From a virus: DNA of 30,430 bases. Position numbers and translations under genes: made by a program. The stretch is taken from positions 1 through 30,430 of the IMG/VR virus record IMGVR_UViG_3300042731_004498, one strand, 5' to 3'. Below the pieces are notes generated by a model. That model did not search any database, was not told the origin of the DNA, and saw only the letters and a list, made by a program, of their open reading frames with translations. Shown piece after piece: positions 38-30,430 of the stretch; the stretch's first letter is position 1, and every line of letters begins with the position of its first letter.

Positions 38-952
38 CTAGCCTTGAGTCCCATCGTTCTGATCCTCCGTGCAAGTGGCACAAGTTGCCGGCGGCCGAGA
101 GTCGGCGCCGATCCAACGGCCGCACTTGGCGCAGTACCAGTGCCCGTCCCTCGCGTTCGCGTGGTTCTCGGTCGCGATCGCCAGTGCGCACTCCTCGAGC
201 TCGAACCAGCGGCGCTCCATTGCCTCGTAAACGTGTGCGACACAATGGAGTTCGTCGGTGTGGAGTCTCTCGGCGGTCTCGGCAAACGACTCTCCGGGAT
301 CGCTTAGGCCCATTCGCTCATCGGCGGCGGTCAACTCGAGCTGGCTCATCGTCGCGACCTGATCAATCGATGGGAGCTGTATCGGTTGCGGCGAATCCTC
401 GAGGCAATGCGTCAACGACTGCGGCTCGATCCCCCGAACGTGAGTCGGCGGATGTGCGAGGCAATTGGGGTGACCCTGCTCGCACGTCCAAGGCACCGGA
501 TCGGGCGATGTCCAGTCGTGATCGACGCCGCACACGACACACCGGCCCTCGTCGTCGGGGTGACAATTGAGCTCCGGCCGCGGCTTGCTCGCGGTGATCG
601 GCCCGTCCATGAGCGCGGCGATTCGCGCCGCCGTGCCCTCGGCAAGCTCGGTGACCCCCATCATGGTTCCGAGCGCGACGATCGCCCGCTCGTTTGCCTC
701 GACGCGCTCCTTGAGATCGGCGACATCTTGCCGGAGATCCTCGAGGGAGCTTGCCTCGAGCTCCGTCAGTCGCAGGTCGAGTCTCTCAACGAGTTCCAGC
801 AGGCCGTCGCCGGCTGTCGACGTCGCGTTGACCGCCCGCTGCGTCTCGCCGGACAAACGGACCACTGCCTCCCGGAGCTCGTCGATCTCTTTCCCGAGGT
901 CGCGGAGCCGATCGAAGATCTGCTGTGTCTGCACTGAGTCGAGATCGATCAT
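38..952 (-). CDS. Coiled-coil protein with zinc-binding clusters, unknown function
   Basis: 304 aa from ATG 952, two bases beyond the stop of the upstream gene. An in-frame ATG at 1018 would overlap that gene by 64 bases, so 952 is preferred; a GAGG lies about 10 nt upstream. Residues 1-100 are heptad-rich and charged (for example FDRLRDLGKEIDELREAVV), predicting a coiled coil. Residues 130-170 hold a Cys/His cluster (C130, C138, C141, H145, C157, H161, C164, H167). The C-terminus has a textbook zinc-ribbon spacing, C274-x2-C277-x13-C291-x2-C294. It is the last visible gene of a four-gene leftward operon. I recognise no family. The architecture suggests an oligomeric nucleic-acid-binding or protein-binding factor, which is inference. 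That it is a real gene is likely; its function is unknown. Confidence 0.7.
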   Translation of the reverse strand: MIDLDSVQTQQIFDRLRDLGKEIDELREAVVRLSGETQRAVNATSTAGDGLLELVERLDLRLTELEASSLEDLRQDVADLKERVEANERAIVALGTMMGVTELAEGTAARIAALMDGPITASKPRPELNCHPDDEGRCVVCGVDHDWTSPDPVPWTCEQGHPNCLAHPPTHVRGIEPQSLTHCLEDSPQPIQLPSIDQVATMSQLELTAADERMGLSDPGESFAETAERLHTDELHCVAHVYEAMERRWFELEECALAIATENHANARDGHWYCAKCGRWIGADSRPPATCATCTEDQNDGTQG

Positions 953-954
953 GA

Positions 955-1185
955 CTATCTCGCCTCTCGTGGAATCAAAACAGAGTAGGCGCCGCCTGCG
1001 TGTCGCCACTCCACGCATGGGCCGTCAAGCGAGTGCCAACCCTCAACCTTGTTGATGCCGCCCCGAACGCGCTTAAATTCGTATCCGTTCGCGGTGGTCG
1101 GAATGCCCTGATCGTCGACCAGAACGATCGTCGGCCTACAAAGGCCGCTTTCGGTATCGTAGTGTAATGCTGTTTTCTCGGTCAT
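955..1185 (-). CDS. Small hypothetical protein
   Basis: 76 aa with an ATG preceded by GGAGG at 4 nt, a good ribosome site on the minus strand. The sequence looks like a single compact beta-rich domain (TIVLVDDQGIPTTANGYEFK, then CVEWRHAGGAYSVLIPRE), with no signal peptide or membrane segment. It follows a hairpin-containing 62-base gap after the wHTH-like gene and is followed at two bases by the coiled-coil/zinc protein. I do not recognise the family. The coding call rests on the Shine-Dalgarno, the GC-rich codon pattern and its place in the operon. Confidence 0.6.
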   Translation of the reverse strand: MTEKTALHYDTESGLCRPTIVLVDDQGIPTTANGYEFKRVRGGINKVEGWHSLDGPCVEWRHAGGAYSVLIPREAR

Positions 1186-1247: not shown

Positions 1248-1493
1248 CTACTCCAGCGGGAGCGGGAGCTGAACCATCGGCGCCGATCGCGGGCGCATCC
1301 GCGGCGCCGGCGCCGCGACCTGATCCTCAGACGTGATCACGATGAGACCGCGAGCCGCGAGCGCGCGCAAAGTGCGCCCGTCATACTTGCCGCATTCAGA
1401 ATACGGCCGGCGGCGGATCTCCTCGAGGGCCGAGCTCATCGCCGGCGATGGCCGCCACGCCGGCGCACGCCTGGGAAAGTAGCGGCAACCCAT
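1248..1493 (-). CDS. Small winged-helix-like protein with a QLPLPL C-terminus
   Basis: 81 aa. The ATG at 1493 overlaps the upstream stop as TAATG, indicating translational coupling; an in-frame upstream start at 1511 would overlap more and is less likely. Residues near 25-60 (ALEEIRRRPY, then DGRTLRALAARGLIVI) resemble the recognition helix and wing of small winged-helix DNA-binding domains, where a (R/K)TLRAL..RGLI stretch is common. The last residues read QLPLPLE. QLxLxL is the hexapeptide form of the bacterial beta-sliding-clamp binding motif, and its terminal position is typical of clamp ligands. Both readings are pattern recognition, not homology. It could be a regulator or a replication-related adaptor. 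Confidence 0.6.
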   Translation of the reverse strand: MGCRYFPRRAPAWRPSPAMSSALEEIRRRPYSECGKYDGRTLRALAARGLIVITSEDQVAAPAPRMRPRSAPMVQLPLPLE

Positions 1494-1810
1494 TAGCGCA
1501 CCCTTGCGCAACGGGCACCGAGCTCGCGGCCATCCCGTTCGAGTGTCGCGATCTCCTCATTCGTTGCCGGCCTCGAGTCACGCTGTGCGGTCACTTCGCG
1601 GCGTTCGCCTTCGAGCGTTGCGGCCTCGATCGCATACGGTTCGCGGGTCGCGCTCGCATAGATCGACGTGTGCACGTTTGCGCCGAGTTCTGCCAAGACA
1701 TCGACGGCGCACTCATTCACGCCGAATCCCAACCGCAAATGATCGTCGGCCTCGAGACCGTCGATCGCGAGAAACTCCTCAATCAATGCCCTGATCACGT
1801 GTCGCTGCAT
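1493..1810 (-). CDS. Hypothetical protein, first gene of the left operon
   Basis: 105 aa. ATG 1810 is preceded by GAGGAGG at 5 nt, the best Shine-Dalgarno of the left operon. The N-terminal half (RHVIRALIEEFLAIDGLEAD) looks helical. The C-terminal half (EAATLEGERREV, then NEEIATLERDGRELG) is charged and probably coiled coil. No membrane segment, signal peptide or known motif is visible. It directly follows the region carrying three TTCAAG-N5-CTTGAA palindromes, the nearest only 15 bases from the start codon, so its expression is probably controlled through them. I do not recognise the family. Confidence 0.65.
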   Translation of the reverse strand: MQRHVIRALIEEFLAIDGLEADDHLRLGFGVNECAVDVLAELGANVHTSIYASATREPYAIEAATLEGERREVTAQRDSRPATNEEIATLERDGRELGARCARVR

Positions 1811-1824
1811 GGTAACCTCCTCTA

Positions 1825-1841
1825 TTCAAGTCTCGCCTGAA
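1825..1841. promoter_or_regulatory. Operator-like palindrome, copy 1 (imperfect)
   Basis: TTCAAG-TCTCG-CCTGAA differs by one base from the symmetric TTCAAG-N5-CTTGAA. It sits immediately upstream of the Shine-Dalgarno of the first left-operon gene, so a bound protein there could block transcription or translation initiation. The regulator is unknown. Confidence 0.55.
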
Positions 1842-1851
1842 ACTCGGAGGG

Positions 1852-1857
1852 GGTCAA
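1852..1857 (-). promoter_or_regulatory. Possible -35 box (TTGACC)
   Basis: On the minus strand TTGACC lies between palindrome copies 1 and 2, so a promoter here would be overlapped by both sites. No good -10 is found 16-18 bases downstream, so this is only a weak candidate and the true promoter may not follow the sigma-70 consensus. Confidence 0.25.
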
Positions 1858-1863
1858 CACCTA

Positions 1864-1882
1864 TTTCAAGGTAGACTTGAAA
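1864..1882. promoter_or_regulatory. Operator-like palindrome, copy 2 (perfect, 7-bp arms)
   Basis: TTTCAAG-GTAGA-CTTGAAA is a perfect inverted repeat with 7-bp arms and a 5-bp spacer, the best of the three copies. Its centre is 40 bp from copy 1, about four helical turns. This is typical of dimeric repressor operators in phage control regions. Confidence 0.6.
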
Positions 1883-1979
1883 CGCGGCCCCGGGGGCATC
1901 CGGGCGGTATAGTGCAGGTCGAAACGCCGAATCGGCGACCGGAAAAACCTAATGATTTTCCCTGGTGACAATGTAGTTA

Positions 1980-1996
1980 TTCAAGTAACCCTTGAA
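1980..1996. promoter_or_regulatory. Operator-like palindrome, copy 3 (perfect, 6-bp arms)
   Basis: TTCAAG-TAACC-CTTGAA has the same arms and spacer length as copy 2, centred 115 bp from it. The spacer sequence differs, so the copies share arms rather than being a recent duplication of the whole site. It lies nearer the end of the lysis module. Confidence 0.55.
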
Positions 1997-26263: not shown

Positions 26264-27859
26264 CTAGATCCGATCGAGGTCTTTCGCGCGATTCGACCGC
26301 TTGGGCTTGACTGCTTTGTAGCTGACCTTACCCCGCCTCCGGCGCCGGGGGAAAAACCGCCAAACAGGGTAGCTGACCGCATCACATAGGTGAGCGTGTG
26401 GCGAGCGCCGATAGGGTACTCCGCCGCGATTCTCCCATTGCTTCAAAGCCTTATTAGTCTCGCGGTTTTCGGGGACGCTGAACAGGCGCCGATACGGTTG
26501 GGCCGAGCGCCGGGCCGAACACATGCGCGCATTCGTTGCCTGGACTCGTTCCACGATCGGCGGATTCTTTTCCATGCGGCGATCGGGGACATAGAGAAAC
26601 TTCCAACCGCGAGCCTTGAGCAAATCCCAGGAGCCGCGGCCTCCCTTGACTCGTTCGTGCGATCCGGTTTGCCACTTGGCCGAGGCGTCGAGGATGAGCG
26701 CGGTCGTTTCCTTGTCGTACCCCTTGGCCTCGAGCTCGTCGGAGAGATCATCCTCGGTTCCCTCGACGACGGTCTCGTCGACGAGCCATTGGAGCGGGTC
26801 GATCGGATCGCGCGGGTTGGCGAAAAACTCCGAGGTCACCGCGGCCATGTAGGGCGATTTCTGAAAGTCGATCCCGATCACGTGATCGAATTCGCGCCCG
26901 AGGTGCCGGCGCGTGACTTGGCGTGTGATGTTGCCGAGCTCCGGGGTCGGGCGGATGTTGCCGGCGGTCGTCGACGGTAGCCACGCGTAGAAAACCCGAT
27001 CCCCGATCGGTACGAAGATCCCGAGAACCTCGCGATCGTAGTCATCCTCGCCGAATTCATCGCGGAGGAGCTCGAGGCTTCGCCAATCGAGCGTTGGGTT
27101 TTTCTGATTGTCGAAATGGATCAGCTTGACGCCCGGGAGCGCGTTCGCTTGCGCGGCGTCGTGAAACTCGGTGATCCACATGCCTTTGCGTTCGCGCGGC
27201 GGGTTGGCCGTGATCAATCCGAGACCGCCGGTGTCGGCCAGGCGTGGCCGAGCCATGAGGTAAGCGTCTTTTTTGAAACGCTGGCCCTCGTTCATGAGCC
27301 AGATATCGACTCGGCCGCGTTTCAGACTCGAGGGATCGTAACCGCTGAGAAGTTGAATCTCGGAGCCGTTCCAGAATCGCCACGTGAGCTCGGATTGTTT
27401 CCACTGATACCAGCCCGGCACGAGTACCTGATCCATGACACGCCGGAGCTCGTCGGCCTCCTCGATCACCGGCGAGATGTCCCAGCAGATCCGATCGGCC
27501 ATGCCGAGCGCCATGAGGGCGACGGCGCGCACCGCGAAATCCGATTTGCCGGCGCCGCGACCGCCCTCGAGGATCAGGGTATAGATGTCCTCGAAGCCTT
27601 CGAGCCGCTCGCCGGCGGCATAGGCCCGGAACCAATCGGCGAACCAATGGGCGGCCTCATACTCGGCCGGCTGAACGCGCCAAATCGCTTGGGTGTGCCC
27701 GTCCCCGATCCAGCGGCGCTCCTCGGTATCCCAGCGACCGCCGGCGCGGAGGATCGTGTGCTCGCCGTTCCACTCTCGGAGGTCTACTTGTAAGTCGACC
27801 TCGCGGTCAGCCCCGGATAGGAGCTCCGCCGCCTGTCCTTGGATTCCCCGGGGTGACAC
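26264..27859 (-). CDS. Terminase large subunit (Mu gp28-like)
   Basis: 531 aa, GTG 27859, overlapping the small gene upstream by 53 bases; no better downstream start is seen. ATPase: Walker A GGRGAGKS (residues 99-106), Walker B VDIWLMNEG with catalytic E191, coupling motif near LITANPP (214-221). RNase H-like nuclease: D331 in VIGIDFQ, D391 in ALILDAS, D493 in AHLCDAVSYP, the expected acidic triad. The Asn before Glu in Walker B (MNEG) replaces the usual Asp-Glu. It translocates DNA into proheads through the portal encoded next. Identity is very secure. Confidence 0.9.
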   Translation of the reverse strand: MSPRGIQGQAAELLSGADREVDLQVDLREWNGEHTILRAGGRWDTEERRWIGDGHTQAIWRVQPAEYEAAHWFADWFRAYAAGERLEGFEDIYTLILEGGRGAGKSDFAVRAVALMALGMADRICWDISPVIEEADELRRVMDQVLVPGWYQWKQSELTWRFWNGSEIQLLSGYDPSSLKRGRVDIWLMNEGQRFKKDAYLMARPRLADTGGLGLITANPPRERKGMWITEFHDAAQANALPGVKLIHFDNQKNPTLDWRSLELLRDEFGEDDYDREVLGIFVPIGDRVFYAWLPSTTAGNIRPTPELGNITRQVTRRHLGREFDHVIGIDFQKSPYMAAVTSEFFANPRDPIDPLQWLVDETVVEGTEDDLSDELEAKGYDKETTALILDASAKWQTGSHERVKGGRGSWDLLKARGWKFLYVPDRRMEKNPPIVERVQATNARMCSARRSAQPYRRLFSVPENRETNKALKQWENRGGVPYRRSPHAHLCDAVSYPVWRFFPRRRRRGKVSYKAVKPKRSNRAKDLDRI

Positions 27860-29942: not shown

Positions 29943-30328
29943 CGATCGTCCCCCGGTGGAAAAACGAGCTTGACCGCGCGATCGTGCTTCGTGATCCGCG
30001 CGGTCTCGGCGCACGCCCACGCCGCGCACCCGTCGCACGGCGCCTCCGGGTCGCAGAATTGCTCGGCGGGTTGCAGACACCGGCCGCGCACCGGTGGGTT
30101 GTTTTCGACGTGGCGCGCGCGCCACTCCGCACGAGTCAGACCGTTGTAGAGCGGCGAGAGCTCGCCGCCGAGGTAGTGCGGCAGCGTAGTCCAGCGCTTT
30201 TCATGGTCGGCTTGAAAATCCCCGGCAACCGATCGACGATCCGCGGCGGTTTCGGTTTCGCGGCTTTCGGTCACCGGTTTTCGGGCATCGGCGGCGCGGG
30301 TTGCATCAGACTGCATATCCGGAATCAT
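29939..30328 (-). CDS. Cys-rich small hypothetical protein
   Basis: 129 aa from ATG 30328 (a second ATG at 30316 is equally possible; neither has a strong Shine-Dalgarno). The N-terminal 40 residues are polar and probably disordered (AADARKPVTESRETETAAD). Residues about 80-110 contain five Cys in the spacing C-x7-C-x5-C-x2-C-x4-C (GRCLQPAEQFCDPEAPCDGC), suggesting a metal site. It is the first visible gene of the run, ends as GTGA with the methyltransferase, and lies just downstream of a palindrome-bearing non-coding stretch. No family is recognised. Confidence 0.55.
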   Translation of the reverse strand: MIPDMQSDATRAADARKPVTESRETETAADRRSVAGDFQADHEKRWTTLPHYLGGELSPLYNGLTRAEWRARHVENNPPVRGRCLQPAEQFCDPEAPCDGCAAWACAETARITKHDRAVKLVFPPGDDR

Positions 30329-30430
30329 CCTGCATGTTTGGGTCAGTTGACCCCCCTATAAGATAGCGTAATCGCTTGGGTTTTTGTGGCCAAAGCCGAT
30401 GTCAATAATATCGCGAAGTTGAGCCGCGCC
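30329..30430 (-). other. Right-end non-coding stretch, probable promoter region
   Basis: These 102 bases are AT-richer than the genes and hold no supportable coding frame. On the minus strand there is a consensus -35 (TTGACA, 30405-30400) without a matching -10 at 17 bases, a TATTAT (30410-30405) whose -35 would lie beyond the window, and TATCTTATAG near 30365. I infer that the promoter of the rightmost operon is here but cannot place it exactly. Confidence 0.35.
30340..30353. promoter_or_regulatory. Palindrome GGGTCA-GT-TGACCC upstream of the first right-hand gene
   Basis: A perfect inverted repeat (6-bp arms, 2-bp centre) lies 12 bases upstream of ATG 30328. The location fits an operator acting on the operon that begins there. 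Its half (GGGTCAAC on the minus strand) also appears in the left control region near 1851-1858. Confidence 0.45.

Follow-up and report, generated by a model that had tools for sequence, protein, structure and literature searches.

At the OL and OR regions of phage lambda, several copies of one dyad-symmetric site are read by the dimeric HTH repressors CI and Cro. The locus described here resembles these regions in that multiple dyad-symmetric sites are found at what is proposed to be an early promoter, where they would overlap the promoter elements. It differs in its site sequence and in its spacing: lambda has three closely packed sites, whereas here two sites bracket the -35 hexamer, the third lies ~115 bp away, and the repressor was not found in the fragment. 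A second point of comparison is provided by phages TP901-1 and phi13, in which CI binds three related palindromes per switch, OR, OL and OD (PMC11149083, PMC8516035). The half-sites of phi13 contain TTCA, as do the arms of the palindromes considered below (PMC11149083, PMC8516035). This likeness is one of palindrome number and kind, not of base-by-base layout against TTCAAG-N5-CTTGAA, and the TP901-1/phi13 system is a Gram-positive phage switch with CI and Mor, whereas no CI or Mor gene is present in the fragment. Nor are divergent cI and mor genes found around the sites: in this incomplete contig both neighbouring genes point leftward, and family searches identified a regulator in neither case. 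The kind of switch, phage repressor operators, is well known; what is new is the operator sequence only.

The window, by which is meant the whole stretch of DNA that was analysed, is a linear IMG/VR fragment of 30,430 bp (record G000). Its credible genes all point leftward and run, from the right, through a DNA methyltransferase and packaging genes to those for portal, head, sheath, tape measure, baseplate, tail and lysis; the portal, major head protein and sheath are akin to those of Mu-like phages. To the left of the lysis genes there is a gap of 287 bp (1811-2097), longer than any other non-coding stretch in the contig, and beyond it a second leftward operon (the left operon) that reaches the left end. 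Three palindromes of the form TTCAAG-N5-CTTGAA lie inside this gap, all of them upstream of the left operon. The features of the region are as follows.

38-952, minus strand: fourth left-operon gene (~304 aa), in which inspection by eye suggests a coiled coil and a Cys-rich C-terminus; no convincing family
955-1185, minus strand: third gene of the left operon, 76 aa, no assigned function
1248-1493, minus strand: second gene of the left operon, 81 aa, the wHTH-like protein of the preliminary description; no family match
1493-1810, minus strand: gene that opens the left operon; its product of 105 aa has no family match, and the model predicted from its single sequence is unreliable (pLDDT 44)
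1816-1821, minus strand: Shine-Dalgarno AGGAGG of the left operon's first gene
1825-1841, minus strand: putative operator copy 1, one mismatch; TTCAAGTCTCGCCTGAA, on the minus strand TTCAGGCGAGACTTGAA
1829-1834, minus strand: proposed -10 GAGACT, a poor match (3/6) at 17-nt spacing, inside copy 1
1852-1857, minus strand: TTGACC, proposed as the -35 for leftward transcription; it separates copy 2 from copy 1 and is placed as TTGACA is in relatives G047 and G057
1865-1881, minus strand: putative operator copy 2, perfect; TTCAAGGTAGACTTGAA, on the minus strand TTCAAGTCTACCTTGAA
1980-1996, minus strand: putative operator copy 3, perfect; TTCAAGTAACCCTTGAA, on the minus strand TTCAAGGGTTACTTGAA
2098-2823, minus strand: endolysin, the upstream neighbour and last gene of the late/lysis block; CHAP and peptidoglycan-binding matches

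The positions of the three palindromes (1825-1841, 1865-1881 and 1980-1996) come from a motif scan of the whole 30,430-bp record, which bore out the preliminary description, made from the letters alone, of two perfect and one nearly perfect inverted repeats with the same arms and a 5-bp spacer. Start to start they are 40 and 115 bp apart, the longer distance (copy 3 to copy 2) amounting to ~11 helical turns. The arms are conserved among the copies and the spacers (TCTCG, GTAGA and TAACC) are unrelated, which is the trace expected of a dimer reading two half-sites. No further perfect copy was found in the 30.4-kb record, and the single extra match at ≤2 mismatches in the 30,430 bp (30200-30216, one mismatch) is within a coding frame; the preliminary description, too, had noticed no other paired copy in the window. 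It had also been proposed that occurrence of the motif at random frequency across the rest of the genome would count against a control function; within the 30.4 kb, to which this measure of rarity applies, four matches (≤2 mismatches) were seen against a mean of 0.34 expected, and none of 100 dinucleotide shuffles reached four. For perfect pairs with a spacer of 0-12, two were observed and none expected. In a stricter test the arms could be any hexamer, and one perfect partner together with a third copy with ≤1 mismatch was required within 200 bp; this free-arm triple was found in 27 of 1518 dinucleotide shuffles (p ~0.018). On its own the cluster is significant, not overwhelming, and probably real; the weight is carried by the comparative geometry described below.

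Read on the minus strand, copy 2 (1881-1865) is followed after 7 nt by TTGACC (1857-1852) and, 10 nt further on, by copy 1 (1841-1825), then by AGGAGG (1821-1816) and the ATG (1810) of the left operon's first gene. The end of copy 2 thus lies 7 nt upstream of the -35 hexamer, whilst copy 1 lies 3 nt upstream of the Shine-Dalgarno sequence and 14 nt upstream of the ATG and overlaps the proposed -10/start region. A right-orientation TTGAC is present in only ~1% of the window's 23-bp stretches. A consensus scan found no sigma-70 promoter at the left-operon gap and also missed the proposed -10 GAGACT, so that the proposed promoter rests on comparison with relatives and not on its own strength.

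These relatives were found by protein comparison. A nucleotide search of deposited phages returned no relative, and scans with single proteins (the endolysin, the first-operon gene, the terminase and the 38-952 protein) returned no useful one. Scanning with an alignment of major head proteins recovered a single syntenic fragment (L107/G007, 55% identity); the baseplate proteins of this fragment and of the window, scanned together, then led to a clade of uncultured relatives, several of them 30-50 kb long. Perfect TTCAAG-N5-CTTGAA was found in none of ~70 related or partly related records, and isolated one-mismatch matches in only two of them; as far as the collections searched show, the sequence is private to the window's phage. 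The preliminary description had looked to conservation of the sites in related phages, and here it did not hold for the sites themselves: the pair is absent from the ~70 related records and the arrangement alone is kept.

The arrangement is seen in two of the relatives. In G047, a syntenic relative with 42% identity in the baseplate protein, CGTGAG-N5-CTCACG is present at 26571-26587 and, with one mismatch, at 26612-26628; like copies 1 and 2 of the window these are 6-N5-6 palindromes (here 41 bp apart) that flank a TTGACA, with the upstream one 7 nt from it, ahead of a leftward operon (starting at 26567). The arms differ entirely from those of the window, and the place of the third copy differs too: in the window it is upstream in the same gap, whereas in G047 it is a perfect copy (27120-27136) in an intergenic gap flanked by divergent genes. 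This copy closely follows a TTGACG, and 8 nt beyond it comes the ATG (27145) of an HTH_3/HTH_31 gene, the product of which matches phage transcriptional-repressor families. G057 is a more distant relative (32% over part of one protein), in which the 6-N5-6 palindrome GTTTCC-N5-GGAAAC is found twice before a leftward operon; the two copies flank a TTGACA, with the upstream copy again 7 nt from it. The arms are again different, the spacing is 35 bp, and three further near-copies are found where an S24/HTH repressor gene begins (HTH and S24 peptidase domain, CI/LexA type; PHROG ‘transcriptional repressor’, E 8.6e-15). The layout common to the three phages is therefore an upstream operator, 7 nt, TTGAC, then 10, 11 or 5 nt (window, G047 and G057, respectively) and a second operator, with G057 set apart by its 5 nt after the -35 and 35-bp operator spacing against the 10-11 nt and 40-41 bp of the other two.

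A search for this layout, as N5 palindrome pairs 30-45 bp apart in 1.49 Mb of related sequence, yielded six pairs. Three of these belong to a single phage, where they are repeats that overlap one another within a reading frame. The remaining three, those of the window, G047 and G057, contain TTGAC, always at an offset of exactly 7 nt from the upstream operator; in 129 shuffled sets, 0.016 TTGAC-containing pairs were found per set. By this comparison, what is conserved among the relatives is arrangement, not sequence, in only three instances, of which G057 is distant. Where repressor specificity drifts, arrangement without sequence conservation is to be expected. One layout with three operator sequences suggests that the promoter architecture is kept while the specificity of the repressor drifts, and the layout provides a simple rule by which early promoters and immunity groups can be sought in raw phage contigs. 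No characterised switch was found for this uncultured clade of contractile-tailed phages with Mu-like heads, for which the locus supplies an operator sequence and a probable promoter layout.

The records of this clade, G046 (L229-L231), G047 (L232-L233) and G048-G052, come from phages that are uncultured and appear to be temperate, and whose heads and tails are Mu-like. The genes of G046 include a tyrosine integrase, HTH genes and ParB-domain, YqaJ and DnaB genes. G048 (31667-31699, L235) and G050 (220-335, L244) have palindrome doublets of their own near contig ends (GGAATCGATTCC; TGTCTC-N2-GAGACA and GATCAC-N6-GTGATC).

The reading to which we give the greatest weight, with a probability of about 0.78, is that the three palindromes are operators through which a dimeric HTH repressor controls an early promoter directed leftward. 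It is supported by the confinement of the sites to one control region and by the same layout in two relatives, the extra operator copies of which adjoin Cro/CI-type HTH repressor genes. Two or more clustered copies of one dyad-symmetric site are indeed present in a control region, as in CI/Cro-type multi-site operators. Copies 2 and 1 would bracket the -35 of the promoter of the left operon, which we take to be of the early type. We infer that a dimer binds these sites and represses rather than activates: on copy 1 it would cover the -10/start region and block polymerase directly, and on copy 2 it would sit just upstream of the -35 and add cooperativity, so that RNA polymerase would be excluded until the repressor was lost. 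Given the 17-nt spacer and the -10 GAGACT in copy 1, transcription would start near 1822. Copy 3, ~11 turns upstream, may be an auxiliary or distal operator that strengthens repression via cooperativity or looping. The preliminary description had likewise proposed that the sites form an operator read by a dimeric regulator of the phage, copy 1 being placed to block the promoter or ribosome site, and the two relatives with the same TTGAC layout and further copies at HTH repressor genes support this. Its suggestion that the 1248-1493 protein might be the regulator gained no support: this protein has no family match, and its low-confidence model (pLDDT 63) gave no significant fold match in a structure search. 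The repressor is most likely of the CI/Cro (XRE) type and would be encoded outside the 30-kb fragment, in which no repressor gene was recognised by family searches that covered part of its small ORFs.

The same sites could instead bind a phage activator of the late- or middle-gene type that turns the left operon on. Sites for activators can be located upstream of the -35, where copies 2 and 3 are; the weak -10 is typical of activator-dependent promoters, and the left operon comes after the lysis block. An activator is nevertheless unlikely, because on copy 1, which overlaps the proposed -10/start region, it would hinder polymerase, and because the similarly sited palindromes of G047 and G057 recur at Cro/CI-type repressor genes.

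It is less probable still that the palindromes act as hairpins in the mRNA leader, with copy 1 extending to CCTCC/GGAGG and hiding the ribosome-binding site. In predicted folds the copy-1 hairpin does bring the Shine-Dalgarno sequence into pairing with a CCUCC that lies upstream (z -2.7), and the whole leader is more stable than 200 of 200 shuffles (z -3.0); moreover, the mismatch of copy 1 is a G-U pair on the mRNA strand, and copy 3 is extended by a lower stem, ACAATG/CATTGT. Any DNA palindrome, however, folds in this way by construction, and the hairpin needs transcription to begin before copy 1, whereas from the proposed promoter it would begin inside or after this copy. The loops are unconserved and the arms conserved, and in G047 and G057 it is the position around the -35 that is kept, not one around the ribosome site. 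There was no Rfam family match (Rfam and tRNA searches found nothing), and no homologous leaders were found for covariation. A two-level version, in which copy 1 is both a DNA operator and an RBS-hiding hairpin in a read-through transcript of the late operon, so that the left operon is silenced before and after transcription, seems to us just as improbable.

Operators of an early promoter are also a far better account than a partition (parS-like) or replication-origin repeat set, for which the chances appear very small. A relative, G046, encodes a ParB-domain protein, part of the 1811-2097 gap is A+T-rich, and the half-sites recall, in GTTTCA/TGAAA, the arms of chromosomal parS. Against this, the copies have a promoter-like arrangement that brackets the -35, those of the relatives are at repressor promoters, and among the genes of the window none was recognised as encoding ParB or a replication protein. 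A chance cluster, although free-arm triples arose in 1.8% of shuffles, is hardly credible for low-G+C arms that all lie in one long gap of a 64% G+C genome, with four matches where 0.34 were expected for the motif and an exact 7-nt offset to TTGAC that two relatives share.

Inverted repeats are unusually frequent throughout the 1811-2097 gap. A further strong hairpin, ACC-GGGAAAATC-ATTA-GGTTTTTCC-GGT (1938-1966), is situated on the minus strand between copies 3 and 2, and a perfect dyad, CGCCG-ATT-CGGCG, is found on the same strand at 1925-1937. On the plus strand TGCACTTCAGTGCA followed by GGTTTTT (2053-2075), just after the endolysin gene, is terminator-like for rightward transcription, although no rightward gene is evident. 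At the right end of the window there is a palindrome, GGGTCAGTTGACCC (30340-30356); it includes GTTGACCCCC, which recurs on the opposite strand in the proposed -35 region (1858-1849).

The motif was also sought elsewhere. A literature search for TTCAAG-N5-CTTGAA returned only a paper on Acinetobacter UmuDAb. The UmuDAb site is reportedly TTGAAA...TTTCAA, with arms opposite in order to those of TTCAAG-N5-CTTGAA. Paired-motif scans of the collections gave 9 and 2 viral matches and 68 genome matches, most of them repeats that are interspersed or lie in coding sequence. In two assemblies, a gammaproteobacterial and a planctomycete one (L025, 3842-3898, and L052, 3821-3878), Fic-wHTH genes that are 72% identical are preceded by a pair of TTCAAG-N5-CTTGAA sites at a distance of 40-41 bp; such sites are not general for the Fic-wHTH family. 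Fic-wHTH proteins were considered as binders, in the manner of an autoregulatory operator, and rejected, since among 30 homologous Fic loci paired sites were present only at the already known locus, and since the spacers at the Fic loci are RYNRY, unlike those of the phage.

TTCAAG-RYNRY-CTTGAA pairs 40-52 bp apart were also seen in Mycobacterium (L021, L037, L048, L051, L069, L081 and L088) and Nocardia (L045 and L080), at several of the Mycobacterium loci just upstream of a YbaB-like gene. Their flanks vary by locus yet stay complementary (e.g. CTAATCC...GGATTAG), and these pairs look like a separate regulatory or hairpin element. Finally, four related viral contigs (L010, L013, L014 and L018) contain a region in which TTCAGGTACC(C)CCCTGAA palindromes recur at intervals of ~22 bp; this array is possibly another multi-site operator.
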